A DNA stretch of 64,000 nt, taken from Candidatus Schekmanbacteria bacterium. GTDB taxonomy: Bacteria; CSSED10-310; JACPHN01. The DNA is taken from contig JACPHN010000124.1 in assembly GCA_016188575.1 (NCBI GenBank), forward strand, positions 1-64,000, written 5' to 3'. Both the position numbers and the translations under genes were made by a program. Position 1 is the first letter of the stretch, and each line of letters opens with the position of its first letter. The notes beneath the pieces were generated by a model. The model worked only from the letters and a program-made list of their open reading frames with translations. It did no database searches and was not told the DNA's origin. Positions 5,820-20,906 of this stretch are shown here, in pieces.

Positions 5820-5821
5820 CC

Positions 5822-7810
5822 ATGCTTTCCCACGCCATCCGCAGCATCCTGTCGATGATTCCCACACTGCTTGGAATTACCTTGGTGACTTTCCTGATTA
5901 TCAGCTTGGCACCGGGGGATCCCGTGGCAACGAGTTTTGGCGCGGGCGCGGGAGAACCGGGTGCCGAGGCCGGGGCGGGGCAGAGCCGTGAGCGCCTGGC
6001 GGATGCCATCAAGGCAAAAAAGAAGCTGCTCGGAATGGTGCGAGAGGACCACGCCGTGCGGGTGTGGTCAGGCCCCGATGCGCCCGTCGCCGCGGTGGAC
6101 GACCGCACCGGCGCCGCGGCGATGAGTGCGCTAGGCGCGTTCAGGGAGCTCCCCGGCTGGGCTTATGCGCTCGCGCCGCGGGCGAACGACCAGCTCGTCG
6201 TTGGGGGCGAGGCGGGCTATGTCCTGATCGCTGACCTCGTCACTGGCGCGGTGCAGCGGGAGCTCGCGGGCGGGCTGCAGCGGATCGCGAGCGTGGCGAC
6301 CGCGTCCACCGGCGACCTCATCGCGGCCGCGGACATTGACGGTCGCATCGCCCTGTGGCGCGGCGAGGCCGTCAAGCCCGCGGCGGTGCTGGAACCCCTC
6401 GGCAAGCCGGTGCGGAGCCTCGCCTTCCTGCCGGACGGCAGCCGCTTGCTCAGCGCCTGTGACGATGGGCTTATCCGCCTGCATCAGGCGGACACCGGAG
6501 CCGTAATGAAGACGTATTCCGGGCACATCGCCGGCGTCTACTCCCTCGCGGTGAGCGCCGACGGGACGGGTTTCTACTCCGCGGGGTACGATCGCGTTCT
6601 CCGGCACTGGCGCTGGGTAGGCGTCGGCGGGGAAGCCGCGCCGCGGCCGCGATTCGTTCATGGGCAAGCGGTCAACGCCCTGGCGCTTTCCCCGGATGGC
6701 TCCCTGCTGGCCACGGGTAGCGACGACCGCGTGCTACGCGTCTTTGCCGTGCCGGACCTGGCCGGCGACGCCGCCGAGGTCGCGCCGGCGGCGGAGCTTG
6801 CCGGCCACTACCGCGAGATTACCGCCGTGGCTTTCGGCGCCGAGTCGCGGACGCTGTTCAGCGGCAGCCGCGACGAGACAGTCCGCTCCTGGGACCTCCG
6901 AGCGCGGCGGCAAGTCGGCCAGACCACCGTGGCCACCGGTGTCGTCCATGCGCTCATCGGCGACCCCGCCGACCCCGCAGCGGTCCGTTCCGCCGCCAGT
7001 GGATGGGTCAGCGTGCCCATCATCAGCCGCTATCTGAAATGGCTGAGGCGCGTCGTTACCTTCGACTTCGACCGCTCGTTCGTCGACGACCGCAAGGTCA
7101 TGGAGAAGATCGGCGCGGCGCTCCCGGTGACCCTGGGCCTGAACGCGATCGCCCTGGTGCTCATCTATGCGGTGTCGATCCCGCTTGGCATCACCGCTGC
7201 GGTGCGCCGAGGCACGGCGTACGACCACGTTTCTTCGGTCGTGCTCTTTGTGCTCTATTCAATTCCGAACTTCTGGCTCGCCACGCTGCTGATCATGGGG
7301 TTATCGTCCAAGCAGACCCTGGACATCCTCCCGTCTGTTGGCCTGCACGATATCGGCGAGCAGGACTTGTCGTTCTTGCCGTGGCTGGCTGACTTCGGCT
7401 TGCACCTGGTGTTGCCGATCGCCTGCATGGTTTACGCCGGGTTTGCGAGCCTGTCCCGCTACGCCCGCACGACGATGCTCGAAACGATCGGGCAGGACTA
7501 CATTCGCACGGCGCGGGCAAAGGGGCTGCCGGAAAGCCTGGTCCTTTACAAGCACGCCCTGCGCAACTCGCTCATCACGATCGTCACGTTGGCCGCCAAT
7601 CTCCTGCCGGCGATGATCGGCGGGTCGGTGATCGTCGAGTACATTTTCAGTATCAACGGCATGGGCAAGCTCGGCTTCGACGCGATCCTGGCGCGCGATT
7701 ACCCCGTCATCATGGCGATCACCACGTTCAGCGCGTTTCTCACGCTGCTCGGCATCCTGCTGTCGGACTTCCTGTACACCGTGGTCGATCCGAGGATCAC
7801 GCACAAGTGA
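5822..7810 (+). CDS. YejB/DppB-like ABC permease with a WD40 beta-propeller inserted in periplasmic loop 1
   Basis: Residues 1-30 form the first transmembrane helix and end with the family motif LAPGDP. From about residue 434 the standard inner-membrane permease continues: the coupling-helix region DYIRTARAKGLPE, then IEYIFSINGMG-type and VVDPRI C-terminal motifs. Between them sits about 320 extra residues (75-395) made of WD40-like repeats: repeated S/G-DD-RVLRVF or D-ETVRSWDL ends, each after a hydrophobic A-F-PDG-L strand (for example at 200-222, 241-263, 285-308, 333-357). The first piece, DHAVRVWSG (76-84), can close the ring with 372-393, giving about seven blades. Family members are normally 310-370 residues long. 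The gene begins 2 bp after the binding-protein stop. Topology would put the propeller in the periplasm, where it might bind the solute-binding protein or substrate. Confidence 0.9.
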   Translation: MLSHAIRSILSMIPTLLGITLVTFLIISLAPGDPVATSFGAGAGEPGAEAGAGQSRERLADAIKAKKKLLGMVREDHAVRVWSGPDAPVAAVDDRTGAAAMSALGAFRELPGWAYALAPRANDQLVVGGEAGYVLIADLVTGAVQRELAGGLQRIASVATASTGDLIAAADIDGRIALWRGEAVKPAAVLEPLGKPVRSLAFLPDGSRLLSACDDGLIRLHQADTGAVMKTYSGHIAGVYSLAVSADGTGFYSAGYDRVLRHWRWVGVGGEAAPRPRFVHGQAVNALALSPDGSLLATGSDDRVLRVFAVPDLAGDAAEVAPAAELAGHYREITAVAFGAESRTLFSGSRDETVRSWDLRARRQVGQTTVATGVVHALIGDPADPAAVRSAASGWVSVPIISRYLKWLRRVVTFDFDRSFVDDRKVMEKIGAALPVTLGLNAIALVLIYAVSIPLGITAAVRRGTAYDHVSSVVLFVLYSIPNFWLATLLIMGLSSKQTLDILPSVGLHDIGEQDLSFLPWLADFGLHLVLPIACMVYAGFASLSRYARTTMLETIGQDYIRTARAKGLPESLVLYKHALRNSLITIVTLAANLLPAMIGGSVIVEYIFSINGMGKLGFDAILARDYPVIMAITTFSAFLTLLGILLSDFLYTVVDPRITHK

Positions 7811-8937
7811 GAGACCAGGTCGCAAAGGAATCGCCGCACCCGAGGCGGCCGTCGCCGCAAGACTACTGGTCTATCGTGCGCGCCCAGTTGCGGCGAAACA
7901 TCGGCGGCATGATCGGCTTCTGGATCATTGTGGTGCTGGTGCTCACGGCGCTTGCCGCTCCGCTGCTCGCTAATGACCGCCCCATTGTCGCCGTCTATCG
8001 AGGAGAAGTCGTCTTTCCTTCACTCAAGGCCTACGTTGACTTGTGGGTGCCGTGGAAGAGCTTGCGATACAGCTTGAAAAGCTGGCAGTGGAACGTCGAC
8101 CCGCCATACTTTCCGTTCTCGGAGCACTATCCGCAGCTCGCCGGCAAGAGCTGGAAGGAAGTCGACGGCGGCGCGGAGCTGACGTTTGCCATCTGGCCGC
8201 CGCTGCGCTGGAATCCGAACCAGTTCGATGCCACCGCGCTGCGGCTCTTGCCATCGGCGAGCAGTGGGCACTATTTCGGCACCGACGACCAGGGGAGAGA
8301 TATCCTCGCCCGACTCATCCATGGCACGGTCGTGGCCCTATCGGTGGGCGTGATTTCGGTGGGCATATCGGCCATTATCGGCATCGCGCTGGGGCTGCTT
8401 GCCGGCTATGTGGGCGGCGCCGTCGACGTGTTGCTTTCTCGGGTCACCGAGGTGGTCATGTGTTTTCCCACGTTCTTCTTGATCATCGCCGTCATCGCTT
8501 TTCTCGAGCCGTCGATGATCAACATCATGCTCGTCCTCGGCCTGGTTGGCTGGACCGGCAAGTTCCGCCTGATCCGCGGCGAGGTCTTGCGGTGCCGCGG
8601 TCTGGAGTACGTGGTTGCGGCCGAGGCGATGGGTGTGCCGGCGTGGCGGATCATGGTAAAGCAAATCCTGCCGAATGCCATCGCGCCTGTGTTTGTGTCG
8701 ATTGCGTTCGGCATCGCGTCCGCAGTGTTGACCGAGACGAGCCTGTCGTTTCTGGGGTTCGGAGATCCGACGGTTCCGTCCTGGGGTGAAATCGTCAGTC
8801 AGGGTCGCGCGTACGTGTCGCAGGGGTTATGGCACCTGACGGTTTTTCCCGGGATCGCCATTTTCGTCACCCTCACCGCTTTCAATCTTTTTGGCCAGGG
8901 CATGCGCGACGCCATGGATCCCAAGCTGCGAGCGTAG
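7807..8937 (+). CDS. YejE/DppC-like ABC transporter permease
   Basis: A 376-residue peptide-transporter permease that pairs with the upstream propeller-bearing subunit. GTG 7807 overlaps the preceding TGA (GTGA), so translation is coupled. The N terminus has one transmembrane helix (about 34-54), then a long periplasmic segment with NDRPI and WPPLRWNP, features shared with YejE, followed by HYFGTDDQGRDILARL, which precedes the membrane core. The cytoplasmic EAA-type loop is seen as LEYVVAAEAMGVP, and SWGEIVSQGR is near the end. No ATP-binding subunit (DppD/F or YejF type) follows within the window. The transporter must therefore borrow an ATPase encoded elsewhere or lack one. Confidence 0.9.
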   Translation: MRDQVAKESPHPRRPSPQDYWSIVRAQLRRNIGGMIGFWIIVVLVLTALAAPLLANDRPIVAVYRGEVVFPSLKAYVDLWVPWKSLRYSLKSWQWNVDPPYFPFSEHYPQLAGKSWKEVDGGAELTFAIWPPLRWNPNQFDATALRLLPSASSGHYFGTDDQGRDILARLIHGTVVALSVGVISVGISAIIGIALGLLAGYVGGAVDVLLSRVTEVVMCFPTFFLIIAVIAFLEPSMINIMLVLGLVGWTGKFRLIRGEVLRCRGLEYVVAAEAMGVPAWRIMVKQILPNAIAPVFVSIAFGIASAVLTETSLSFLGFGDPTVPSWGEIVSQGRAYVSQGLWHLTVFPGIAIFVTLTAFNLFGQGMRDAMDPKLRA

Positions 8938-9105
8938 AAGGCGGTGGCCATCTGGAATGCCATGCAAGTCTTGTGCACCCGGCTCGCAGCGAGTGGCCGT
9001 GGTGCGGTCACGCAACTCTCAAAGCTGTGGGTCGATAATTCTGCCAGCGTTTTTGGAACCTATTCAGACGCCAAACACGTCGGGCGCCGCCGGGAGGAGT
9101 AAAAG

Positions 9106-10746
9106 ATGACAACGATAGGGAGCGAGCTGCGACCAACACCGGCTACCGTTACTCCGGACCTTGTGGGCACCGGGGTAGACGCTGCGGGAGGCACGGGGCC
9201 TGCCGTCGAAGTCGAGGGCGCCGCTGGCGCCGCGCCTGCGGCTGCGGCGGACGCCTACGAGGAGGCCCGCGCCGGTGCGACGGGGGCACTCGCCGCGGCG
9301 CCGGCAGAGGGGGCCACGGCAGCCGCAGCGGCCAGTCCGCTGGCGGGAAACGCCGAGTTTACTCAGGCGGGTCGCACTGTTGACCTGGACGATATTCGCG
9401 CCGGCCGCGCCACCATGGGCGTCGGTGCCCGCGGAGAGGCCGTCGAGCGCCTGCAGCGCGCACTTCGCGACAACGGCGCGGACATCGCGCCCGATGGTCA
9501 GTTTGGCTCCCGCCAAACCAAGCCGGCCCTGCAGGCGTATCAGCGCAGCCACGGTTTGCCGCCGACCGGAAGCCTGGACAGAGCGACTCTGGCTGCGCTC
9601 GACGGCACTCCCGCTCCGGACGAGCCCCCGCATGGGCTACAAAATGCCCGCTTTGCGACCGACCCGACGCTCCAGCAAGTCCTCGAGGGCACGAAGAAAT
9701 TGCGCTCCGGTGCCAGTGGCCCGGCCGTCACCGCCGTTCAACAAGCGCTCTCCGATCTCGGTTTCGAGCTCCCCGCGTATGGTCCGGACGGTGGATTCGG
9801 CGGCGAGACGGTGACCGCTCTCCGGCGTTTCCAGCGGACCAATGGCCTGCCGCAGACCGGCCAAGTTGACAGTGAAACGCTGCGCAAGCTCGATGAGCTC
9901 GCGCCCCCCCCGGCCCAACGCGTCGATCGCTCTCCCGAATACGACCGACTTTTCGAAGATGGCACTCTGGACGTCGGCATCGCCATCGGCTACGACGAGA
10001 GCGGTTGGGGGCCTCATGCGCGACGCGACGTGCTTTCAGGATTGCGGCGGTTGGAGTATTCCGAAGTGCGGAGAGCCGACCATACCGACGAGCAGTTGCG
10101 CGACATGGGTATTGATCCGGGATCGTTTCAGGACGGCGTCCAGATCTTCCACCGTAAGCTCGAGCATAACGGGCAAGAAGTGAATTCCGTGGTGCGGTTG
10201 ATGGACGAGGACACCCCAAACGCCGTCGATCGCTTCAGCGGCTCCCTGCAGAACGCGGACGTCGTGATGTACGGAGGCCATGCGCGGTACGGCACCGGGC
10301 CTGACTTCGACGAAAAGGACTCGACGGCCGGAAATTTCGTGCTCGGCGTCAACTCCTCGTTGCATCGGTCGGGCAAGCTCAAGCCCGGCTACGACGCGCA
10401 CATGAACCAGATCTTGCGCGGGCAGCCGAATCGGCTCGAGGGGCTGGATCTCCCCGAGGATCGCTATCAGTTGTGGTACTTCAACGGCTGCACGACGCTC
10501 AACTACCTCGACGAAGTTCGCGGTCTAGCGCAGGGGAAGGACGATACCAATCTCGACGTCGTCGGCTCCAGGCGGCCGCTACTGTGGAATCACGTCGGCA
10601 CCAATCTCGTGACCTTCCTGGAGGGGTTGCAGAACCGCAATACGATCGGCCAGATCACCTCGAGTCTGCAGACCAACGAGGAGGGTACGGCGGGCGCCTT
10701 CTACACGGACGGATTTGGGGACAACCGCTACGGAGCGCGCAACTGA
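9106..10746 (+). CDS. Peptidoglycan-binding protein with C-terminal caspase-fold-like His/Cys domain
   Basis: The 546-residue product starts with a low-complexity Ala/Gly-rich segment (1-100). Two PG_binding_1 modules follow, at about 107-167 (GARGEAVERLQRAL, then SLDRATLAALD) and 202-263 (VTAVQQALSDLGF, then QVDSETLRKLD). The C-terminal domain has VVMYGGHARYG (His392) and WYFNGCTTLNY (Cys462), each ending a hydrophobic strand, as in clan CD peptidases. Catalysis is unproven. No standard signal peptide is visible, so export is uncertain even though wall binding is predicted. A GGAGG box lies 9 bp before ATG. The gene lies 168 bp after the permeases and could be co-expressed with them. Confidence 0.7.
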   Translation: MTTIGSELRPTPATVTPDLVGTGVDAAGGTGPAVEVEGAAGAAPAAAADAYEEARAGATGALAAAPAEGATAAAAASPLAGNAEFTQAGRTVDLDDIRAGRATMGVGARGEAVERLQRALRDNGADIAPDGQFGSRQTKPALQAYQRSHGLPPTGSLDRATLAALDGTPAPDEPPHGLQNARFATDPTLQQVLEGTKKLRSGASGPAVTAVQQALSDLGFELPAYGPDGGFGGETVTALRRFQRTNGLPQTGQVDSETLRKLDELAPPPAQRVDRSPEYDRLFEDGTLDVGIAIGYDESGWGPHARRDVLSGLRRLEYSEVRRADHTDEQLRDMGIDPGSFQDGVQIFHRKLEHNGQEVNSVVRLMDEDTPNAVDRFSGSLQNADVVMYGGHARYGTGPDFDEKDSTAGNFVLGVNSSLHRSGKLKPGYDAHMNQILRGQPNRLEGLDLPEDRYQLWYFNGCTTLNYLDEVRGLAQGKDDTNLDVVGSRRPLLWNHVGTNLVTFLEGLQNRNTIGQITSSLQTNEEGTAGAFYTDGFGDNRYGARN

Positions 10747-10776
10747 GCGGATGCCAGGTGGCGGCGGAGGCAATCG

Positions 10777-11526
10777 ATGGGGTGGGTCAAACGAGCGCTC
10801 GCACTGGTGCTCGTGGCGACCGTCCCGGGAGTCGAGGGGTTTGGGTTCTGGTGCCCGCGCGGTGTTGCGGCGGGCAGTGGAGATAAGAAGATGCAACAAG
10901 CAGTAAGAACGGCCGAAGATGATCGCGCCGCAGTCAAGGATCGAGTCGCCGCGATCGCGGCGCTCGGCGAGGTAGACGCGGCGGAATCCGTGCCTTTGTT
11001 GATGAAGCTGTTGACGTCGATGGAGCCGGACATTACCGCCGCGGCGGTGCAGGCGCTGGCGCGGCACGGGGCTCCGGCGATGCTGTCGGGGCGGCTCGCG
11101 ACCGGCAGCGCCAGTGAGCGCCGCGCTGCGGCCTTTGCGCTGCGGTATTTTCCAACGGCGTCGACGGCAGGATCCCTGCGGCGCGCCCTGTCCGATGCCA
11201 ATGCCGAGGTCCGGTTCACGGCGGCATGGTCAATCGGCGTGCTGGCGATCCGCTTGCAGGACGAGGCGCTGATTCGCGAGCTCGTGGAGGCACTGGCGGG
11301 GTTGCTGGTCGATGGCAGCGTGGACGTGCGCTTTTGGGCAGCCTGGGCCATCGGCACGGGCACGCAGCGCCTGGGGCGGGCGACCAGCGGACGCCTGGCG
11401 GAGGCTTCCGCGAACACCGTTTCCCGCGCCCGCCAGGCGCTCGAGCGACGCGTCGTCACCGAGACCGACCCCGACGTGAGGTCGGAGCTCGAGCGATCCC
11501 TGCGGAAGATCGGCCGCGTGAACTGA
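10777..11526 (+). CDS. Exported HEAT-repeat protein
   Basis: A 249-residue protein with an N-terminal signal-like stretch (about 5-35) and then consecutive HEAT-like helical repeats: DRVAAIAALGEV, PDITAAAVQALARHG, ASERRAAAFALRYF, AEVRFTAAWSIGVLA and VDVRFWAAWAIGTG. Such repeats form a superhelical protein-binding surface, and no catalytic motif is seen. The gene follows the peptidoglycan-binding protein by 30 bp, with a GGCGGAGG box before ATG, and is probably co-transcribed with it. The partner is unknown. Confidence 0.75.
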   Translation: MGWVKRALALVLVATVPGVEGFGFWCPRGVAAGSGDKKMQQAVRTAEDDRAAVKDRVAAIAALGEVDAAESVPLLMKLLTSMEPDITAAAVQALARHGAPAMLSGRLATGSASERRAAAFALRYFPTASTAGSLRRALSDANAEVRFTAAWSIGVLAIRLQDEALIRELVEALAGLLVDGSVDVRFWAAWAIGTGTQRLGRATSGRLAEASANTVSRARQALERRVVTETDPDVRSELERSLRKIGRVN

Positions 11527-11540
11527 AACCGGCGGTGGCG

Positions 11541-11570
11541 GTGGGGGAGGAGCGGCTGCTCCTCTCACCC
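11541..11570. terminator. Hairpin between convergent genes
   Basis: GAGGAGC (11547-11553) and GCTCCTC (11558-11564) pair around a GGCT loop, with further flanking G/C pairing. It lies between the HEAT-repeat gene and the convergent gspG. No T-run follows, so function as a terminator is tentative. Confidence 0.35.
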
Positions 11571-11615
11571 GCCCCGAACTGCGTTCGGGGATTTTCTTGC
11601 CGGGCATGCCGCTGC

Positions 11616-12062
11616 TCAGCCGCAGACCTCCGAGCAGTACTCCTCGTCTCCTTTGGCGCACACACGGTAGTCGCTGCCGCCGGCTTCCAGCTCGTATGTG
11701 TAGGGCGTGGCCCACGGATCTACGGGGACTTCCTTGGCTTTTCTGAGGTATGGCCCGCCCCAGTTGCCGATCCCGTCGTCCGCAGTTAGACCCGCAAGCG
11801 ACTGAGGATAGCGCCCGGTGTCGAGGTGATACGCCTCGATGGCGTTTCCGATGGTGCCGATCTCCCCCTTTGCGGCGTTGCACCTGGCTTTGCGGGATTG
11901 CGAGCTCACCTTGATGGCGACCATGCTGCTCAGGAGGCCCATGATGGCCACCACGACCATGATTTCCATGAGGCTGAAGCCGGCCTGGGCGCGAGCTCGC
12001 GAGGTGTTCCGGCCGCCGGCGGCAGGTGATGTGGAAGTTGACGCGCACTGGATCGATGTCAT
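11616..12062 (-). CDS. gspG: Type II secretion major pseudopilin GspG-like
   Basis: A 148-residue type IV pilin-like protein. The prepilin peptidase site is QAG|FSLMEIMVVVAIMGLL, with Phe29 as mature residue 1 and the conserved Glu at +5 (Glu33), followed by the N-terminal hydrophobic helix. The C-terminal region keeps GspG features: GNAIEAYHLDTGRYP, DDGIGNWGGPYL and VPVDPWATPYTYE (calcium-site loop region). ATG 12062 is chosen because AAGGAG stands 7 bp upstream; the frame is open further upstream to 12164. No other secretion genes neighbour it, so it is an orphan pseudopilin that would need a distant Gsp machine or a pilus-like system. Confidence 0.85.
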   Translation of the reverse strand: MTSIQCASTSTSPAAGGRNTSRARAQAGFSLMEIMVVVAIMGLLSSMVAIKVSSQSRKARCNAAKGEIGTIGNAIEAYHLDTGRYPQSLAGLTADDGIGNWGGPYLRKAKEVPVDPWATPYTYELEAGGSDYRVCAKGDEEYCSEVCG

Positions 12063-12237
12063 GTCGCACTCCTTCGGATAGAGGCTTTCTGCGTGATCGC
12101 TGTTACACGAGAAGATGGACATCGTCCCCGGAATCATGTTCCCTGGGTTGCCTGACAGGCTCACGGACGACCGTCCCTCGGCGGCGCGAGGAGCGCGCGA
12201 CTGCCAGCGCCGATGAGCAGAGCTGCGCGTGTCCGCG

Positions 12238-13473
12238 CTAGTCCTGCACGAGGCGATCGGAAAGTTCCCGCACGCGGCCCGCTCCGTATTCGAGTAGCGC
12301 CCATAGCAGACGGGTCGCGATCTCCGATTCGGCGCGGGTCAGAGACAGAAAATCGTCGCGGCGGATCGCCAGCAGCGTCGTCGCTTCTTGCGCGACGACG
12401 GCGGCGGATCGCGGCGCGTCGTCGATCAGCGCCAGCTCGCCGAAGTGTCCTCCCGGCCCGATCGTCGTCAGCACCACGCCGCGCAGCTCCACGCGCACCG
12501 CGCCGGCGATGACGATGTAGAGCTTGTCGGCGGCGTCGCCTGCGGCGAACACGGCCTGGCCGGCGCGAAAGCTCTCTGCATTCATGATTTTCCCGACGCG
12601 CAGTCGTTCCTGCTCGTTGAGCTCGCGAAACAGGAAAAGCGTTTCGAGACGTTCCAGCGTTTCGAGCCAGTCGCGCTCCTGAGGCGCAGCCGTGGGAGTC
12701 GGCTGAATCGCCACGAGGACCAGGCTCATGGTGCCGAATACCGGGCGCTCGCCGAGGGCCTCGAGCTTTTTCGCCAGCGCCGTCACGGCCTCGTCCGGGT
12801 CCTTGACGGCGGCAGCGGCGAGGAAGTCGGACTTCCCGAGGTAGCGTGTGAGGTTCGAGGATCCGATCACGAGCACATCGTGGTCCATGAGGTCCACGAC
12901 CGCCGTGTCGACGCGGAGCGCCGGCGAAAGGCCGAATGCCGCGCACACTTCGGAGGCCACCATGAGCTGGATGCGGCCGGTGTCCGAAACGCGGCCTTGC
13001 TCGGCGAGATGCCGGTGGAGTGTGTGGGGTTCATTGAGCGCTCGCACGCGGTCGCCGCGGACGAGGAACAGGCGACAGGTACCGGCGTGAGCGATATACG
13101 CGCTCTGCTCAAAGCAGAAAACGCCGGCGGCGGAAGTTGCGGTGCCGCGTCTCCAGGGGGCGACGTGGGTGGAGTGAAGAAGATGAGCATTGGTTTCCGA
13201 CAGGATGATCTCGATTGCCGCCAGGATCTGGCGCCGTAGGTCCGCCGCCGCGCTCGCGTCGACCCGGGAAAGCTGGTGTCGCAGCCGCTGTGCGCCCTGG
13301 TGAAGCTGGTCCAGGCACAGCAAGGACGCGTGCGCCCCTCGGGGGGGGTCGGCGAGGCCGTCGGCGACGGCAAAGAAGCCCAGATCTTCGTCCAGGATGA
13401 AGTGGTCGTTTCGCGGTTGCCGGGCTCCTCCCTGGGGCGGGAGCCGCAAGCTGGCAGCTACGGTCTGGACCAT
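12238..13473 (-). CDS. PP2C-like phosphatase fused to a cyclic-nucleotide-binding domain
   Basis: The 411-residue product has an N-terminal PPM/PP2C-type domain (about 1-255) and a C-terminal cNMP-binding domain (about 275-395). PP2C traces include the early Asn-Asp pair, GFFAVADGLADPP (motif VADG, but the usual GG after it is missing), GTATSAAGVF and AYIAHAGTCRLFLVR. Metal-binding residues are therefore partly altered and activity is uncertain. The cNMP domain shows FRAGQAVFAAGDAADKLYIV and the phosphate-cassette-like FGELALIDDAPRSAAV. The frame also opens at TTG 13488, but ATG 13473 has a GGAG nearby. It lies 30 bp downstream of parA and probably forms one operon with CHAD and parA, where it could tune a Ser/Thr phosphorylation step. 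Confidence 0.8.
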   Translation of the reverse strand: MVQTVAASLRLPPQGGARQPRNDHFILDEDLGFFAVADGLADPPRGAHASLLCLDQLHQGAQRLRHQLSRVDASAAADLRRQILAAIEIILSETNAHLLHSTHVAPWRRGTATSAAGVFCFEQSAYIAHAGTCRLFLVRGDRVRALNEPHTLHRHLAEQGRVSDTGRIQLMVASEVCAAFGLSPALRVDTAVVDLMDHDVLVIGSSNLTRYLGKSDFLAAAAVKDPDEAVTALAKKLEALGERPVFGTMSLVLVAIQPTPTAAPQERDWLETLERLETLFLFRELNEQERLRVGKIMNAESFRAGQAVFAAGDAADKLYIVIAGAVRVELRGVVLTTIGPGGHFGELALIDDAPRSAAVVAQEATTLLAIRRDDFLSLTRAESEIATRLLWALLEYGAGRVRELSDRLVQD

Positions 13474-13503
13474 GTGGGGGTACTCCAACTGACAGTGCGG
13501 CGA

Positions 13504-14250
13504 CTAGCACCCTAGCCGCGCTCGAAGCTCGCTCCAAAGCTGCTGAAACGCTTTCGCTGCGGCGCTTGTGCGGGCGAAAACGCAGAGCGGGTTCCGCTCT
13601 ACTCCCATCCGCTCCACGCTGCTCGCGCACGGAATCGCGGAGGCGAGAAAGTCGTGCGCGCCATGTCGCCGCTGCCCGGCGATTTGCTTGTGGAGCGCCT
13701 TGCGATTGTCCACCATGGAAAAAAAAGGAAGCACCAAGGGCTTTCTTGTACTCAGCGCCGCCATGACCTCATCGAGCTGTGCCAGCGTGCGCAACGACAA
13801 GGTGGTTGGCACCACGGGCACCAGCAGCGCATCGGCCCGAGCGAAGACGCTTTCCGTCACGAGCGAGATGCTCGGAGGGCAATCGATAAAGAGCGCGTCG
13901 TACTCTGTGGCGAGCGGCTTCACAATGCGCGCGATCAGTCGGTCTGGCTTCTTCTCGCTGCTTAGCGTCAGCTCCATTTTGCGGTAGGAAAGATCCGCGG
14001 GCAGCATGTCGAGGTGCTCGAAATCGGTCGCCCGCACATGGTCCCCGGCTTCCTTGCCCTCGTGCACAAGGCGCTTGACGCCCCCTTTGATCTTGGGCTT
14101 GATGCGGAAGTAAAAGGTCGCCGCCGCCTGGGGATCGAGATCCCAAATCAGCGTCCGCAGGCCGTCACGGGCCGCCAGATAGGCGAGATTGACGGCCGCC
14201 GTCGTCTTGCCGACGCCGCCCTTGACGTTGTAGATGGCCACGATTTTCAT
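13504..14250 (-). CDS. ParA/MinD-family partitioning ATPase
   Basis: A 248-residue ParA-type ATPase. The deviant Walker A is KGGVGKTT near residue 10, with the signature Lys. The switch region appears as LIWDLDPQAAAT, and Walker B-like LFIDCPPSISLVTES is near the middle. Such proteins bind DNA as ATP dimers and position cargo over the nucleoid. There is no ParB gene or visible parS nearby. The start codon overlaps the stop of the CHAD gene (ATGA), so ParA is made together with the CHAD protein, and the PP2C-cNMP gene follows. The context suggests an intracellular cargo linked to CHAD, perhaps polyphosphate granules, rather than plasmid partition. Confidence 0.9.
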   Translation of the reverse strand: MKIVAIYNVKGGVGKTTAAVNLAYLAARDGLRTLIWDLDPQAAATFYFRIKPKIKGGVKRLVHEGKEAGDHVRATDFEHLDMLPADLSYRKMELTLSSEKKPDRLIARIVKPLATEYDALFIDCPPSISLVTESVFARADALLVPVVPTTLSLRTLAQLDEVMAALSTRKPLVLPFFSMVDNRKALHKQIAGQRRHGAHDFLASAIPCASSVERMGVERNPLCVFARTSAAAKAFQQLWSELRARLGC

Positions 14251-15851
14251 CAGGGCTCTGCGGCCGTGACCGCGGCGCCACCGAAGTTGCGCCGATAGAG
14301 CTCGGATTGTTCAGCGCGGATGAACGCCTCGAATTTGCTTTGAAACTCCTCGCGGTCAGCCTGCTGGCGCTGTTCGAAGCTCGCGAAGAGCTGGCCCATC
14401 GCGAAGAACGTCCGTACCGGTGTCCCTCGCAGCGCCAGCATTTCCTCGGCGAGCTGCACCAGTTTGGCGCGCTGAACTTCCAGGTCCTGAAAGGAGCCGA
14501 GATTGTCTTGAAGCGCCTTCAGGGTCGTCACCAGCGCCTTCATGTCATCCTTCGGAAAGAGGCTCTGAAAGAACTCGAGGAGGTAGCGCAGCTTCTTGCA
14601 GGTGATGCGGAGCTCATGGAGCTGACATGCGGGGCTCTGCGCGCTGATCGCGATGCCTTCCTTGACGGCGCGACGGAATGTCCTCCAGATTCTGTTGCGG
14701 GCTATCTCCGCGACCGCGGTGGCGCCGAACGGGGTTTCCACGTGCTGCGGCACCGGCGTATTGAGGTAGGCGCGCCATTGCTGCACGAATCGCGCGTAGC
14801 GCTCGGACTTCAGAGCGGTGGCGAGATTTTGGTGTGCCGCTTGCTGTTTTTCGCGCAGAAAGGCGATGAGAGGGGCGAGGTAGCTTCTGACCTGCGCAGG
14901 CAGGCGTTGTATGTAGTCTTCCATAGTAATCAGGTAGACGTCGAGGTCGCGGGTCGGTCCGGTTACTTCGCCGAGCCATCGAAGCTCTTCGGAGAACTTG
15001 GCGGCGATGGCGCTGGGCAACACGCCCTTGATCTGGCTGAAAATCGACCGAGAGCGGCGCACGGCGACGCGGAAATCGTGCAGGAACTCGGGGTCGGTGT
15101 CGGCGATTGTTCCCGCCTCGTTCTGCTCCATGGTGTCGAGCAATTTGCTGAAAATGGCGTTGAGCGCCTGATCGGCGCGCATTTCCGGAGCCAGGGCGAC
15201 GTCGAGCTTGGCAGAGTAGCCGCCGGGCGCGCGGCCAATGGCGCCGAAAGCTGCAGCGAGGAAGCCGTCCGCGGTTTCGACGGCGCCGAGCTTTTCCTGG
15301 ATGGCCTTGGCGGCCTTTCTCGCCGCCTTGGGGTAGCCCCTGAGGGCGAGCAGGCTGAGCGTGACGCCCACTCGCGCTTCCTCGCCGGGGTGAGTGGGCG
15401 GCGCCGCCCAGGCCTCTTCGGCGACGATCCGCAGCACTGTCTTGGCCTCGTGGTCGCGCACGGCCATTTGTCGGGTGTCGTAGCGCACCTGCAGGACGGG
15501 CAGGAGAGCTCTGACATCCAGGATCGGAGTGAGCTGCTGACGGAGCGGAGATTCGGGGAGCTCGCGAGCAAACCGCGGTGCGCGCGGCGTTTCAAGGGTC
15601 TGCACCGTGGTGCCTGTCGCGCTCGCTGTGAGGGTCAAGGCCAGACTGCACGATCCGGCGACCGCTTCGCAGCTCAGGGCCAAGTCGTTATCGTGGCAGC
15701 GCCAATCGAACGTGTCCAGGAACGTGACGATGCGGCTGCTGGCGGAGATGGCGACGGCGCCAAGCTCTTGCACCAGCCATGAGACGATGCCGTCGAGAGG
15801 GGCCGTGGCATGGGATCCGAAGACGGCAAGGCGTCGCGTGGATTCGAACAT
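14250..15851 (-). CDS. CYTH-like/CHAD-domain protein
   Basis: A 533-residue protein whose C-terminal half is a CHAD domain, an alpha-helical His/Lys/Arg-rich domain that binds polyphosphate. The two family signatures are LHDFRVAVRRSRSIFSQ and QLHELRITCKKLRYLLEF. The N-terminal part resembles a diverged CYTH (triphosphate-tunnel) domain, with an acidic strand TFLDTFDWRCHDND, but the classical ExExK start is not obvious. ATG 15851 has GGAG upstream and is preferred over 15968. It overlaps parA by ATGA. Known family members locate to polyphosphate granules, which is the basis for inferring a granule-related role for the operon. Confidence 0.85.
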   Translation of the reverse strand: MFESTRRLAVFGSHATAPLDGIVSWLVQELGAVAISASSRIVTFLDTFDWRCHDNDLALSCEAVAGSCSLALTLTASATGTTVQTLETPRAPRFARELPESPLRQQLTPILDVRALLPVLQVRYDTRQMAVRDHEAKTVLRIVAEEAWAAPPTHPGEEARVGVTLSLLALRGYPKAARKAAKAIQEKLGAVETADGFLAAAFGAIGRAPGGYSAKLDVALAPEMRADQALNAIFSKLLDTMEQNEAGTIADTDPEFLHDFRVAVRRSRSIFSQIKGVLPSAIAAKFSEELRWLGEVTGPTRDLDVYLITMEDYIQRLPAQVRSYLAPLIAFLREKQQAAHQNLATALKSERYARFVQQWRAYLNTPVPQHVETPFGATAVAEIARNRIWRTFRRAVKEGIAISAQSPACQLHELRITCKKLRYLLEFFQSLFPKDDMKALVTTLKALQDNLGSFQDLEVQRAKLVQLAEEMLALRGTPVRTFFAMGQLFASFEQRQQADREEFQSKFEAFIRAEQSELYRRNFGGAAVTAAEP

Positions 15852-16181
15852 AGGCTGGGCTCCGCAAGAGACAGCGCCGGGGCCCGGCACCTGCGCGTTC
15901 GCTCGCCACGTGTCAGACCTTGACGTGGACAGGCGGGCACGCCGGCCGGCATGTGTAGCGCCTGGCACGCCGCGCCTGACGCACGAGATGGCAGACTAGA
16001 GCAGCGGCGCGGTCTCGTCAAGTAGCGAAATGGTCCGGGATCAACCACCTACTTGACCTCGGAGCGACCGCGCCCCCTCTGTCCCTCCCCACGCAAGCGG
16101 CGGGAGGTGCGGTGGGGGGTCTTCGTGATGCGCTTTCCGAGCAGCATGCAGCCGCCTGGGCGGTGACTTCAGGTGGCCGCC
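15852..16181. repeat. Intergenic region with dispersed repeat family A, copy 1 (about 16060-16167)
   Basis: The segment from about 16060 to 16167 contains a C-rich tract, a GC hairpin and then GTCTTCGTGATGCGCTTTCC followed by GCATGCAGCC. The same block occurs near 36165, 43085, 50893 (inverted) and 61498. The rest of the region holds the presumed promoter of the CHAD operon, but no clear box is visible. Confidence 0.7.
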
Positions 16182-17450
16182 TCAGAGCGCCGCGGCGCCC
16201 GCCGTCGCCGGGACCGGATCACAGGCAAAAAGCGTGGCCATGAAGCCCGTCATTTCGCTCATCCCAAGATCGCCACGCGTCGCGCTCACCTCGTCGAAGG
16301 CTGTGACCCCGTCCGCGGGAATGCCGGGTCCGGCCGCAAGCACCGGCACCGGCCCTGCGAGGTGGTCCCCCGTAATGCTGCTCGTGCCGTGATCCGAGGC
16401 GATGCCGATGCGCAACGCTTCTCCCGCGCGGTCGAGAAAGCAGCCCAGGGCGACATCGATGCGCTCGATGAACTGCGCCTTCTGCACCGCGCGCCGGTCG
16501 TGCGCGCTGATGTCACAGCCTTTGATGTGCAACACGATGAGGTCGAAATCGTGGCTGTACTTGAGAGCGAGCGCGAATTTCGCGTCGAGGTCGGTGTCTA
16601 TGGTGCCGGTCATCGAGGCGTCGGAGAGCACGCGCATGCCGGCGAGCAGGCAGAGCCCGGCGACCGTTCGGTCGGCGCCAATTTCCAGTCCGCTTAGCGG
16701 TTTCCCGCATGCCGAGACCTGAGGCAGAGGTCGGTTCGTGCCGGCTCCCCGCGAGAGCAGGGCGTTGGCGGGGGGTAGGCCCCGGCGACGGCGCCATTCG
16801 TTCACGGGATGGCCGCGAAGCCGCTCGGCGGCCATGCGCTCGAAGCGGTCGATGACCTGTGCGGTGCGGCGTGCGGCAGGATCCTGTGGCGAGATCGGCC
16901 GCGGCGTAAGCCGCATCTCCTGGCTCCCGACTTGACGCGGGTCGCTGCCGAGCACGCGATCGGACAACCCCGGGCCGCGCAGCACCAGCGCCAGCCGATG
17001 GCCGGTGCACAGCGCGAGATCCACCGCGACATCGGGATCCGGCCGCAGGGTGCGAATGGCCTCCAGGAGCTCCTCTCTGCCCGTGTCAATGCGGCCCGCC
17101 CGACAATCCACGATCCGCCAATCATCGCTCACGCTGGCCCAGTTGCAGCGGAACGCGACATCGCCGGGGGCCATCGTCAGCCCCGCCCCGCGAGCCTCCA
17201 TCGATCCGCGCCCGATGGGGTAGCGATCGGGATCGTATCCGAGTACGGAAAGTGTGCCCGCGGCCGTATTTGGAGCGCCGGCTCCACCTCCCGGGCGCGC
17301 CAGACCGTTCCGTCCGCGCCGCGCCAGGTCGTCCATCGCGGGCGTCCTGGCAACTTGCAGCGGAGTCCGATTTCCGAGCGTCGGGTTGGGATGGTCGCCG
17401 ATCCCGTCGAGAATCAGCAGGACCGCCGCATGGAAACGTTTCCCAATCAT
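16182..17450 (-). CDS. apgM: 2,3-bisphosphoglycerate-independent phosphoglycerate mutase, archaeal type
   Basis: A 422-residue alkaline-phosphatase-superfamily enzyme of the ApgM group, interconverting 3- and 2-phosphoglycerate. Metal-binding motifs include LLILDGIGDHP near the start, LIVLHIKGCDISAHD, and GIASDHGTSS toward the end. ApgM proteins usually read PGSDVANLSLLGYDP around the nucleophile. Here the aligned stretch is PNTAAGTLSVLGYDP, placing Thr at the usual Ser position, which this superfamily tolerates. The gene overlaps the upstream 2-phosphoglycerate kinase by ATGA, so both enzymes act on 2-phosphoglycerate from one message. A role beyond central glycolysis, such as 2,3-bisphosphoglycerate metabolism, is possible. 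Confidence 0.85.
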   Translation of the reverse strand: MIGKRFHAAVLLILDGIGDHPNPTLGNRTPLQVARTPAMDDLARRGRNGLARPGGGAGAPNTAAGTLSVLGYDPDRYPIGRGSMEARGAGLTMAPGDVAFRCNWASVSDDWRIVDCRAGRIDTGREELLEAIRTLRPDPDVAVDLALCTGHRLALVLRGPGLSDRVLGSDPRQVGSQEMRLTPRPISPQDPAARRTAQVIDRFERMAAERLRGHPVNEWRRRRGLPPANALLSRGAGTNRPLPQVSACGKPLSGLEIGADRTVAGLCLLAGMRVLSDASMTGTIDTDLDAKFALALKYSHDFDLIVLHIKGCDISAHDRRAVQKAQFIERIDVALGCFLDRAGEALRIGIASDHGTSSITGDHLAGPVPVLAAGPGIPADGVTAFDEVSATRGDLGMSEMTGFMATLFACDPVPATAGAAAL

Positions 17451-18619
17451 CCCGTGTTACGTTTTACTTTTTCTTGTAAGCTGTGAATGACAGTATGTAC
17501 GAGCTCGTTTATCGCCGTATCAAAATCATCGTTATTGATGATATCCATATTGAGCTGATCCGCGACAGCGACAAAGTAGTCGTTGATCAGACGAATCCGA
17601 TGAAAATCGCTCAGCCCGCCAGGGTTCTGACGGACGCGGTGAGCCCGGGTTCGCCGCTGTAGTCGGGTGCGGTGCGTGACGCGGTCGGCCACGGACAGGA
17701 CCACGGGAATGTGATAGGCCTTGTCTTTCAGGTCCGGCCAGGCGAGCAGGGCCGGCACCAGGTGCACGCCTTCGATGATGAGATTCATGTTTTCCGCGAT
17801 GGCGCGCTCAACTACGGCGCGCACCCCGACACAGACCTTGGCGGCCTGATGAGTAAATCCGGCAAGAACGCGATCGGCCTCGCTGGAGCCGATGGTCGCG
17901 AACTCCTCCAGGCTCCCAGCATTGTACGAGGAGCTGTGCAGGGCCGGCAAGATCGCATCCGTAAACACGATGCGCATGATTTGGCGGATAATGTCCGTGC
18001 CGCTCACCTTCATGATCCCGAGCCGACTGGCGAGCTCGGTCGCGAGAGTAGACTTTCCAGTGCCCCCGGCGCCGCCGAGATAGATGATGACCGGCCGATC
18101 GAGGCGATCGATGCGCACGGCCAGATTGTAGTGCTCGGCCGCGTCCTTCCCGAACTGCTCGCGAATTCTCTCGAAGACCCGCTTGGAAAGCGTGTCAGCT
18201 TCGATCTCCAGAATCCCCTCCGCGCGCAGGGAAAGCTCGAAATCGCGCGCCATGGCGTATGCCTCGCTCGGGTCGATGCCTGCGCCGGTGATCGAGCGCG
18301 CCAGCAGGCCCTTGGAGAATGGCACGATAGCGCCCGCCGAGCGGATGCCGATCGTTTTTGGGGTGTCGGCGACGGTCTCGCGTAATCCTTGCAGCACGGG
18401 CGCGCCGTAGGCGGCGACGATCTCGTCGTCGACGATCTTGCGCAGCGCCGCGGTGGTGACCTTGTCGGTGTCGCGGAGGCGGTTGCGCACCGAGTTGGCG
18501 ATCCGATGCGCTTGCTCGAAGCTCATCCCGCGGGTCAGGAGAGAATGCGTGAGAATGCCGCGCATGAACGGCAGCTTCTGGTTGGCGTCGCAGACGACTT
18601 TGAGGCGGGCTTTGCTCAT
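17447..18619 (-). CDS. 2-phosphoglycerate kinase (ATP-cone plus P-loop kinase)
   Basis: A 390-residue protein that matches 2-phosphoglycerate kinases, which make 2,3-bisphosphoglycerate from 2-phosphoglycerate and ATP. The N-terminal region (about 5-95) looks like an ATP-cone regulatory domain (VCDANQKLPFMRGILTHSL). The kinase P-loop is YLGGAGGTGKSTLATELA (about 180-197), followed by VSGTDIIRQIMR and NLIIEGVHLVP. The enzyme is best known from methanogens, where its product leads to cyclic 2,3-diphosphoglycerate; no cyclase gene is seen here. The stop overlaps the apgM start by ATGA. It is transcribed divergently from the selenoprotein gene across about 210 bp. Confidence 0.85.
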   Translation of the reverse strand: MSKARLKVVCDANQKLPFMRGILTHSLLTRGMSFEQAHRIANSVRNRLRDTDKVTTAALRKIVDDEIVAAYGAPVLQGLRETVADTPKTIGIRSAGAIVPFSKGLLARSITGAGIDPSEAYAMARDFELSLRAEGILEIEADTLSKRVFERIREQFGKDAAEHYNLAVRIDRLDRPVIIYLGGAGGTGKSTLATELASRLGIMKVSGTDIIRQIMRIVFTDAILPALHSSSYNAGSLEEFATIGSSEADRVLAGFTHQAAKVCVGVRAVVERAIAENMNLIIEGVHLVPALLAWPDLKDKAYHIPVVLSVADRVTHRTRLQRRTRAHRVRQNPGGLSDFHRIRLINDYFVAVADQLNMDIINNDDFDTAINELVHTVIHSLQEKVKRNTG

Positions 18620-18752
18620 CGGTGGGGAAGGGGGTGGAAATGTGCCGGGGAGAGCGGGGAGAGCGAGAGGCTAGTGTTCCTGAGGGACGTTGTCAATCAC
18701 CGGTTGGTGCGGCCGCCGCGAACAGGCGGTGGCTCCAGGTGGGCGCGCCTCG

Positions 18753-18781
18753 TTGACACGGTGCAGACACACGGATAAGCT
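18753..18781 (+). promoter_or_regulatory. Sigma-70-type promoter for the selenoprotein gene
   Basis: TTGACA (18753-18758), a 17-bp spacer and TAAGCT (18776-18781) lie about 50 bp before the selenoprotein start. The -35 box is perfect and the -10 box partial. Confidence 0.55.
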
Positions 18782-18828
18782 ATTCTCGGTCGCTGCGCGC
18801 GATCGTGCAGTTTCTTTCAAGGAGACCA

Positions 18829-19065
18829 GTGGTGCACATTCAGCTCATTTTCTGCGCGGCCTGAAACTACGAGCCGCAGGCCGTCAGTTTGACGGAAAAG
18901 ATCCTCAAGAAGCTCAAACGAAAAATCAGCTCTCTCACGCTGGTGCCGGATGCCGGTGGCAAGTTCGAGCTGAGCGTTGACGGGGAGTTGATCTATAGCA
19001 AGTTGGGCACCGGGAAATTTCCGGAGGAGAGCGCGATACTGGCGCAACTCGAGAAGAGAGTCTAG
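18829..19065 (+). CDS. SelW/SelT/SelH (Rdx)-family selenoprotein with in-frame UGA
   Basis: Read through one UGA (18862-18864), this frame encodes 78 residues of a thioredoxin-like Rdx protein. The N terminus is IQLIFCAAU, giving the family redox motif CxxU (CxxC in Cys homologues) right after the first strand. It is followed by NYEPQAVSLTEKIL, then SLTLVPDAGGKFELSVDG and GELIYSKLGTGKFPEE, all hallmark family segments. The length matches full-size homologues. AAGGAG (18819-18824) precedes two GTG codons (18829, 18832); either may be the start. A hairpin suited to a bacterial SECIS lies just after the UGA. Standard gene callers miss the gene because of the UGA. It likely acts as a small oxidoreductase. 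Acylphosphatase follows 18 bp downstream. Confidence 0.85.
18881..18895 (+). promoter_or_regulatory. Candidate bacterial SECIS hairpin
   Basis: CCGTCA-GTT-TGACGG forms a perfect 6-bp stem with a loop beginning G-U. The loop begins 23 nt after the UGA, inside the coding sequence. This matches the described bacterial SECIS pattern: a short stem, a G among the first loop bases, and 16-37 nt from UGA to loop. It would bind SelB to insert selenocysteine. Confidence 0.7.
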
Positions 19066-19083
19066 GGCGAAGCAGGAGCGCGG

Positions 19084-19362
19084 TTGGTGGACAAGAGAGC
19101 GCACGTCGTTATTTCGGGACGGGTGCAGGGGGTGTTCTTCCGCGCCAGCACCGTGGAGGAAGCGAGGCGGCTCGGGTTACGGGGCTGGGTCCGTAACTTG
19201 GTTGATGGCCGGGTCGAGGCGCTCATCGACGGCGACGCCGCGGCGGTTGACCGCATGATCGAGTGGTGCCGGCAAGGCCCCGCGCTCGCGCGGGTCGACG
19301 AAGTCCACGTGAGCTGGGAAAGTCCGGGTGCGGAGCTATCCGGGTTTCGCGTGTATTACTGA
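19084..19362 (+). CDS. acyP: Acylphosphatase
   Basis: A 92-residue acylphosphatase, hydrolysing acyl phosphates such as acetyl- or bisphosphoglycerate-type mixed anhydrides. The phosphate-binding loop is [12 protein letters not shown] with the catalytic Arg, and the catalytic Asn lies in [19 protein letters not shown]. The C terminus GFRVYY is typical. An AGGAG box (19073-19077) serves TTG 19084 or GTG 19087. It follows the selenoprotein gene by 18 bp and probably shares its promoter. Confidence 0.9.
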
Positions 19363-19453
19363 GGTGCGCGAGGCGAGCGGAGGGCGCGCGCGTGATCGGC
19401 CGCGCGACAAGCGGACCGGCCGCGACGCTCTCTTCCCAAGGAGCATTCCAATC

Positions 19454-19774
19454 ATGGGTTCACAGGGCCACCTCGCCGTGGCTGTGGTCATGGCGATTCA
19501 CGCCAGCGTCTTTGGCTGGCTCGCGGGGGCTCGCCGCAGGGACCTCAGAACGCTGATATTGGCCGTGGCGTTCGGGCTCTTGGCCGTATCGCAGCTTCTC
19601 CCGGTGATTTCGCCATCGGCGAGCATTTCGCACGTGGCTGCCGTCGTTGGCTGGCTGGGGCGCATCTTGCTCGGCATCAGCTTGACGATTCTCGGTGTGC
19701 GCCTCGTGCGTGCTCGTGCCGCTCGCAAACGGCCGGCGGAGCTTGCTCCCGGCGCTGTTGCCCCCGTTGCGTAG
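19454..19774 (+). CDS. Small membrane protein, unknown function
   Basis: A 106-residue hydrophobic protein with three likely membrane helices (about 5-24, 33-52 and 59-83) and a basic, Ala/Pro-rich tail. AAGGAG stands 10 bp before ATG 19454, which fixes the start; the same frame is open upstream but with poor composition. It follows acylphosphatase by about 90 bp. No family is recognised. Confidence 0.6.
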   Translation: MGSQGHLAVAVVMAIHASVFGWLAGARRRDLRTLILAVAFGLLAVSQLLPVISPSASISHVAAVVGWLGRILLGISLTILGVRLVRARAARKRPAELAPGAVAPVA

Positions 19775-19952
19775 GCCCACCGCGACGCGGAGATCGGCGG
19801 GAACCTCCCCAGTTGCCGAGCAATCGCTCGGCGAGGGGGATGCGTGCTCCTTCGGAGAGCGTGCCACCTGCTCTTCACAGTTGTGAGGTGAGGTGCGAAA
19901 TCCGTTGCGCATGCGCCAGCAAGAAATCGCTGGCCCATGCCACGTCTCTTCA

Positions 19953-19969
19953 TGGCATGGAACTTGCAT
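19953..19969 (+). promoter_or_regulatory. Sigma-54-type (-24/-12) promoter before the acyltransferase gene
   Basis: TGGCATG-GAAC-TTGCAT has the invariant GG and GC exactly 12 bp apart, matching the RpoN consensus TGGCACG-N4-TTGCW. It lies about 50 bp upstream of the acyltransferase ATG. Inverted CATGCCA/TGGCATG arms (from 19937) overlap it and might be a regulator site. Confidence 0.65.
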
Positions 19970-20018
19970 AGTAGTACGGCCGCGAGGACTGGTTGAAGGG
20001 TCAACAAGGAGTGTAGCC

Positions 20019-20906
20019 ATGCGTCTACCGACGCGAATTCTCTCGGCCATCTGGCTGAACATCACGGCACTCGTCGCTTTTGTGTTTTTTCGTGTTCTCA
20101 ATCACGTGGAAGTCCAGGGCCGGGAGCACATTCCATCGCGCAATAGAGTGATTGTGCTTGCCAACCACGTCAGCATGATCGACTCGTTCGCCATCGGCGT
20201 CGCTGCCTACTATCCCCGGGCCATGGTGCGCCCCTCCCTGTTCCCATGGCACCCGGCGGCGCTGGAGAACTTTTTTCAAGGCCGCCTGCTCGCGGTGCTG
20301 TCGACGCTTTGGCGCTGCATTCCCGTGCGCCGCGGCGAACGTGACTTTGGTGCTCTCACCGCCATGACCGAGCGGCTGCAGGAAGGGACCATGCTGCTTT
20401 TCCCCGAGGGGACGCGTACCCGCAGCGGGCGCCTTGGCATGGGGCGGCCGGGCGTGGGCAAGCTCCTTCACGACGTCCAGCCGATCGTCATCCCCGCGGC
20501 CCATACCGGCATGGAGGAGATACTTCCCGTCGGTGCGCGCTTCCCGCGGATCGGGAAGCGAGCGCGCATTGCTTTCGGAGCGCCGATCGACCTGTCCGAA
20601 TACTACGAGCTGCCCGCCGGAAAAGACACTTCGCAGCTCATCGTCAACCGCGTAATGGCGGAAATCGCGGTGCTGCGCGGCGCACTCTTGACGCCGAGCG
20701 GTGCCGGCTCCGGTGCGACCGCACCTCATGCAGCGGCGAGCCCGGTGGCGACGTCCCTCACTGCCACGGTCCGCGGTGCCCGGCGCAACGCGCCCTTGAC
20801 ACTGCCGACTTCCCCGGCTAAGGAGTATCCCAATACGGAAAGTGCAGCCCCGAATCTGAGTGGCTCACCGAATCATGGGATCGCCGGTAGGAGCAGTGAC
20901 CGCTAG
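20019..20906 (+). CDS. plsC: 1-acyl-sn-glycerol-3-phosphate acyltransferase (PlsC-like)
   Basis: The 295-residue enzyme transfers a second acyl chain to lysophosphatidic acid at the inner membrane, or acts on a related acceptor. A membrane segment lies at about 8-28. The acyltransferase blocks are NHVSMID (HX4D catalytic motif), FFQGRLLAVLSTLWRCIPVRRG, and LLFPEGTRTRSGRLG (FPEGTRS block). About 75 C-terminal residues are low-complexity and unrelated to the fold. AAGGAG precedes ATG 20019, and a sigma-54-type promoter sits upstream. The next gene starts one base after its stop, so the FHA and receiver proteins are co-expressed. Confidence 0.85.
   Translation: MRLPTRILSAIWLNITALVAFVFFRVLNHVEVQGREHIPSRNRVIVLANHVSMIDSFAIGVAAYYPRAMVRPSLFPWHPAALENFFQGRLLAVLSTLWRCIPVRRGERDFGALTAMTERLQEGTMLLFPEGTRTRSGRLGMGRPGVGKLLHDVQPIVIPAAHTGMEEILPVGARFPRIGKRARIAFGAPIDLSEYYELPAGKDTSQLIVNRVMAEIAVLRGALLTPSGAGSGATAPHAAASPVATSLTATVRGARRNAPLTLPTSPAKEYPNTESAAPNLSGSPNHGIAGRSSDR

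Follow-up and report, generated by a model that had tools for sequence, protein, structure and literature searches.

The window analysed here is a stretch of 64,000 nucleotides from contig JACPHN010000124.1 of a Candidatus Schekmanbacteria bacterium. Its minus strand encodes, at positions 14250 to 15851, a protein of 533 amino acids that joins a triphosphate-tunnel (TTM/CYTH) fold to a CHAD domain (Pfam E 2.7e-62) and, at positions 13504 to 14250, a ParA ATPase of 248 amino acids (Pfam AAA_31, E 3e-36). Comparison with other genomes makes it highly probable that the two proteins work together on polyphosphate. Given the ParA family, positioning or partition is the most economical mechanism, and by analogy with known ParA systems CHAD-ParA is probably a two-gene positioning/partition module with the polyphosphate granule as its cargo, the CHAD protein being the putative adaptor and ParA the proposed nucleoid-bound ATPase.

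The preliminary description of this DNA proposed that CHAD marks the granule and ParA spaces it, and counted absence of the gene pair from other genomes as grounds against the idea. A search for conserved neighbourhoods gave the contrary result: the pair is kept across phyla. Two samples that had not been selected for the pair were used, one of 185 gammaproteobacterial genomes and one of 386 domain-wide genomes. Within the first, 26 genomes gave scores of 215-440 bits with the profile of this ParA clade, and the others did not exceed 137 bits. Full-length CHAD occurred in 18 of the 185 genomes; 16 of these 18 hold the clade ParA, and in all 16 CHAD lies directly upstream of parA on the same strand. 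CHAD beside ParA was seen in 18 of the 26 clade genomes, including a short CHAD (G178) and a divergent one (G225). The domain-wide sample held the clade ParA in 10 genomes of 9 families, 9 of them with CHAD directly upstream on the same strand. Pooling both samples, CHAD is directly upstream of parA in 25/25 genomes that hold both genes, so that ParA has a cargo-linked partner gene beside it in each sample. Co-occurrence of the ParA clade with full-length CHAD gave Fisher p values of 1.6e-14 and 4.6e-15 in the two samples, phylogeny being ignored and G504, whose CHAD is truncated by a contig end, being entered among the CHAD genomes that lack ParA. Neighbourhoods were counted from tblastn and HMM hits, since a simple picker of open reading frames (ORFs) goes astray in GC-rich sequence and selects the wrong frame there (L078, L087 and L273 are examples).

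Scanning the contigs of named genomes with four CHAD proteins returned 511 relatives, of which the best 80 loci were analysed. A ParA of the same kind lies no more than 164 bp downstream of CHAD, on the same strand, at 33 of these 80 loci, which are mostly from Methylococcales and also include records named Nitrospirae, Deferrisomatales and Myxococcales. ParA was not found near CHAD at the other 47, seven of which (L022, L040, L052, L065, L067, L070 and L088) have less than 600 bp of sequence past CHAD. A search of 28 whole genomes, chosen by the author from the 80 loci, recovered the clade ParA in 25 (305-367 bits; next-best ParA at most 121 bits), adjoining CHAD in 9 of the 25 and elsewhere in the genome in 16. 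Put differently, ParA is still present in 16 of the 19 chosen genomes where the two genes are unlinked, and therefore the partner has been retained even after the genes separated. At L200, a divergent CHAD protein (5782-6717, minus strand; Pfam E 3.1e-29) adjoins the clade ParA, which means that the CHAD partner can be another CHAD subtype. Meanwhile, a CHAD-ParA locus in a record titled Halobacteria archaeon (L041) carries a ParA that nests among gammaproteobacterial ParAs in our tree; judging from this placement, the contig is probably misbinned.

The junction of the two genes is also informative. In the window, the stop codon of CHAD and the start codon of parA overlap as TGATG (14248 to 14252) and share one base; the overlap that had been described earlier is real, and the ATGA given for it is corrected. 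Among 53 distinct junctions from other genomes (56 before three duplicate rows were removed), the genes overlap by 4 nt in 20 and by 1 nt in 4, and in 27 they are 3-75 nt apart. Since the stop and start codons overlap here, and by 4 nt or 1 nt in 24 of the 53 other pairs, translational coupling of CHAD and parA is likely.

The ParA itself displays the marks of an intact ParA/MinD ATPase. The KGGVGKT Walker A motif (K10, G11, G12, V13, G14, K15, T16), with its signature lysine, and the Walker A' and B aspartates are preserved; the motif residues together with D37, D39 and D123 are invariant in 80/80 clade rows. R183 is found in 79/80 and R219 in 75/80 rows; they are candidates for the basic C-terminal residues by which ParA proteins bind the nucleoid non-specifically. 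Among solved structures, the closest chains are those of ParA (8ray, 127 bits) and of Soj proteins, within a range of 127-79 bits. MinD and McdA chains score at most 60 bits (McdA 54 bits), and the NCBIfam model of BcsQ gives 64 bits where its cut-off is 158. MinD-like and BcsQ-like assignments were thus rejected, and the best relatives in the Protein Data Bank, being ParA and Soj, do not make it an McdA-like ATPase either. By its sequence, this is a nucleoid-type ParA. In a tree of 80 clade ParAs and 12 others, the clade stands apart (support 100/99), its branch being 2.75 changes per column long; the tree omits the duplicate genomes L004, L211 and L271 as well as ParA fragments of 200 amino acids or less, and 2 of the 14 outgroup loci yielded no row.

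The CHAD protein was modelled with AlphaFold from 36 relatives (mean pLDDT 91, pTM 0.87). Its residues 212-527 (14271 to 15218, minus strand) match the phosin CtCHAD closely (6qv7, VIA-align Z 36.0, rmsd 2.0 over 315 residues; complex with polyphosphate, 6qva, Z 35.2). In the central site of CtCHAD, mutations of His253, Arg256, Arg260, Arg296 and Arg418/Tyr419 weaken polyphosphate binding (PMC6537752). These residues correspond to H258, R261, R265, R301, R422 and Y423 of the protein described here, all of them invariant in 36/36 aligned rows. Thus, both the domain and the polyphosphate-contact residues of a phosin are in place. Residues 1-211 (15219 to 15851, minus strand) adopt a tunnel fold (Z 14.1 to HpAC1 and 13.9 to AtTTM3, over about 180 residues, and 11.7 to Vtc4), and this domain is degenerate. 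ExExK, which we take to be the TTM/CYTH catalytic motif with its acidic metal site, is absent from it, and a simple pattern search recovered the motif in only 3 rows, from 2 genomes, of 109 CHAD proteins. Furthermore, no Glu is conserved at 80% or more in the N-terminal domain of the 36 relatives. Because of these two losses, the triphosphate tunnel is probably catalytically dead, and an active cyclase or triphosphatase was rejected as a function for it.

The gene content around the pair ties it to polyphosphate. Neighbours confirmed by HMM comprise PPK1, PPK2, Ppx, PstS, PstC, PstB, PhoU, Pit and DUF47. The order CHAD-ParA-Ppx-Ppx-PPK1, all in one direction, occurs in two genomes of the same genus (G329 and G593) and in one of another family (G453); in G329 and G453, Pfam or NCBIfam models bore out the identity of the enzymes, and the G329 operon is preceded by a histidine-phosphatase gene. 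CHAD-ParA-PPK1 is found in G426 and PPK1-CHAD-ParA in a Nitrospirae metagenome-assembled genome, and PPK1 lies 11 bp upstream of ParA in a clade member that lacks CHAD (G247). By tblastn, PPK1, PPK2 or Ppx occur at 7 of 24 ParA-bearing loci and in 0 of 32 control regions (p 0.0015), with author-set cut-offs of E 1e-12 and, for PstB, at least 45% identity. The 24 loci come from the two unselected samples and include L273, where ParA stands without CHAD, and the contigs L003 and L224, each about 3.5 kb long; the control regions were hand-picked at round coordinates, and most of them, though not every one, belong to genomes with the pair. Among the best 80 of the 511 CHAD loci, some phosphate gene is present at 57, mostly in related methanotrophs with pst adjoining, and PPK or Ppx at 6. 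PPK1 is encoded in 39 of 43 ParA-clade genomes. In the source genome (9.2 Mb), CHAD is single-copy, and one PPK1 and one Ppx/GppA are encoded, both away from the CHAD-parA locus.

Other genes recur in the same surroundings. A SixA-like histidine phosphatase stands beside CHAD or ParA in several lineages, at L270 (5334-5852), L215 (4385-4897) and L212 (4473-4979) as well as at 36 of the best 80 loci, and CNNM-type transporters were seen near CHAD at 8 of those 80.

Based on these findings, we propose the following mechanism. The CHAD domain would coat the granule by binding polyphosphate, a function demonstrated for its homologues and for which the sites are conserved here. The CHAD protein would then recruit ParA and stimulate its ATPase. 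As in other members of the ParA family, ParA-ATP dimers would grip the nucleoid non-specifically and let go upon hydrolysis; as a result, granules would climb ParA gradients, keep apart from one another and pass to both daughter cells. The TTM domain, having lost its catalytic motif, probably serves as a binding or regulatory surface and perhaps contacts ParA. Pairing across phyla, PPK1/Ppx operons, contact residues and ParA motifs lend good support to the core of the earlier proposal, in which CHAD marks polyphosphate and ParA positions it; the positioning itself is inferred. On balance, we lean towards a widespread ATP-driven ParA system for the spacing and partition of polyphosphate granules, in which a TTM-CHAD protein devoid of enzymatic activity is the adaptor.

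Several observations weigh against this positioning model. CHAD occurs without the clade ParA in seven genomes (G261, G168, G007, G001, G077, G078 and G079). Neither CHAD nor PPK1 adjoins the clade ParA in 7 of the 26 gammaproteobacterial genomes that hold it (G166, G258, G112, G233, G245, G157 and G135), and the same is true of G522. PPK1 was not found in 4 of the 43 ParA-clade genomes (G002, G535, G185 and G157). In the 16 genomes where ParA is unlinked from CHAD, it sits beside glycogen phosphorylase at 7 loci (L124-L125, L133, L135, L137-L139) and beside the magnesium transporter MgtE at 6 (L130-L135); these ParAs, found in many Methylococcales, could therefore serve another cargo. Finally, the partners of ParA/MinD ATPases typically carry a disordered, positively charged N-terminus (PMC10241942). 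No conserved basic extension was seen in the 12 CHAD N-termini inspected, and the first 20 or so residues of the CHAD model are of low confidence.

The positioning model has its main rival in a role of ParA in regulation or assembly. Much as BcsQ-like ATPases act in the synthesis of cellulose, ParA might be a switch on polyphosphate metabolism that recruits or gates PPK1 and CHAD at one site without moving granules. PPK1 directly adjoins ParA at L201 and L271, whole enzyme operons contain the CHAD-ParA pair, and ParA does match the BcsQ model weakly. However, that match falls well short of the cut-off and the best relatives are partition ATPases of the ParA/Soj kind; moreover, the more constant partner of ParA is CHAD, a granule-coat domain, and not PPK1. 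We regard this role as unlikely, though worth keeping in view. Less probable still, ParA may act on the nucleoid itself through polyphosphate-bound CHAD (tethering, compaction or segregation coupled to phosphate status), with the granule as a mere anchor. The ParA family does bind the nucleoid, and polyphosphate positioning in Caulobacter follows chromosome segregation according to a review (PMC13052382). Two observations speak for a cargo other than the chromosome: phosphate genes are among the recurrent neighbours of the pair, and ParB was not found among the ten neighbouring ORFs scanned (9106-20906), in agreement with the preliminary description, so that the parB-beside-parA arrangement of ParABS partition is absent from this region.

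The third gene of the locus (12238 to 13488, minus strand) starts with a TTG at 13488, 15 bp past parA, and encodes a PP2C-like domain (Pfam E 3.1e-5) and a convincing cyclic-nucleotide-binding (cNMP) domain (E 2.8e-22) that looks intact. Its closeness to parA on the same strand had been described correctly, and it is probably co-transcribed with the co-directional pair here. Aligned to tPphA, the PP2C domain keeps the first Asp-Gly and displays HAGTCR in place of HVGDSR and SSNL in place of SDGL. We assume that the changed aspartate positions are PP2C metal ligands, the aligned chains including Asp-to-Ala variants; the PP2C domain is thus a probable pseudophosphatase, and the gene product may be a pseudophosphatase and cyclic-nucleotide reader local to this locus. 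No relative stands beside any of 53 other CHAD-ParA pairs (0/53), and none appears in the neighbourhood tallies of 80 and 24 loci. The gene was therefore rejected as a part of the conserved module and lies outside it, as a local passenger or a lineage-specific add-on. Given this distribution and the loss of metal-binding aspartates, the earlier suggestion that a phosphatase adjusts the granule process to second messengers is not supported. The distribution also bears on a further alternative, in which polyphosphate would regulate an adenylate cyclase activity of the TTM-CHAD protein, the PP2C/cNMP protein would sense the cAMP so made, and ParA would be incidental. The TTM fold is common to class IV cyclases and a cNMP-binding domain is encoded next door; nevertheless, the tunnel lacks ExExK and any conserved acidic site of that kind, and its supposed reader does not accompany the other pairs, which makes this scheme very improbable. 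That the neighbourhood is purely local and arose by chance, as genes of one region are often unrelated, is scarcely credible, being already contradicted by adjacency across phyla, overlapping reading frames and co-occurrence after separation.

Transcription of this part of the minus strand runs through 2-phosphoglycerate kinase (2PGK; 18619-17447), an apgM-type phosphoglycerate mutase (17450-16182) and then, past a gap of some 330 bp, CHAD, parA and the PP2C/cNMP gene. The 2PGK and apgM genes (16182-18619) overlap each other and stand directly upstream of CHAD, apgM being 331 bp from it, with no terminator above chance between the two. They were rejected as parts of the module: apgM is beside 0/53 pairs and 2PGK beside 2/53, namely L072, where a relative with 31% identity lies behind ParA (8245-9399), and L212 (27%, partial, at the locus edge). 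From these matches, a link of 2PGK to the CHAD-ParA module is possible but rare. No carboxysome genes are among the annotated neighbours. Elsewhere in the window, WD40 repeats are fused to the N-terminus of a peptide-ABC-transporter-type permease (BPD_transp_1; 5822-7810, plus strand), an odd fusion flanked by an SBP_bac_5 gene on one side and another permease gene on the other.

The proposed system resembles several known ones. Like McdAB, which positions carboxysomes, and other ParA/MinD cargo systems, it pairs a Soj/ParA-type ATPase with a cargo-specific protein for a cargo other than DNA, and the nucleoid would again be the scaffold. It differs from McdAB in that a polyphosphate-binding TTM-CHAD protein with no evident basic disordered N-terminus takes the place of McdB as adaptor, and in that its ATPase is nearer to ParA/Soj than to McdA, as the scores above indicate. 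With YgiF-type CYTH/TTM-CHAD proteins and phosins (PptA, CtCHAD) it shares the TTM and CHAD architecture, the CHAD fold and the polyphosphate residues; the lost TTM catalytic motif and the dedicated ParA clade as partner set it apart. AlgP of Pseudomonas aeruginosa is likewise proposed to space granules evenly on the nucleoid; unlike CHAD-ParA, it consists of one histone-H1-like DNA tether and has no ATPase. AlgP is the sole factor for granule positioning named in the available text of a 2025 review, which leaves it to future work whether such positioning costs energy (PMC13052382).

The gene content itself has a precedent. In Acidithiobacillus, the grouping of folD, ppk, parA and CHAD is highly conserved, with plasmid partition as the only role given for ParA in the available passages of a 2024 paper (PMC10892726), and the same operon had been drawn in 2019 with a proposed cyclase role (PMC6416229). 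That locus is like ours in its content of CYTH-CHAD, parA and ppk alone; it was reported as gene context in one genus, and the accessible portions of both papers carry no positioning proposal. No proposal of a ParA for polyphosphate granules was found in the literature searched (open-licence papers, bioRxiv preprints not included). To the extent of that literature, this is the first ATPase-driven positioner to be proposed for them.

For the placing and inheritance of polyphosphate granules in bacteria, a ParA whose gene order links it to a polyphosphate-binding protein and to PPK1/Ppx operons provides a named two-gene candidate. The pair is open to deletion and imaging in methanotrophs that can be grown in culture, among them Methylotuvimicrobium buryatense 5G, where the two genes are adjacent (L029). 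If the proposal is true, a storage polymer would join the known cargos of ParA, and an orphan ParA clade would gain a cargo.

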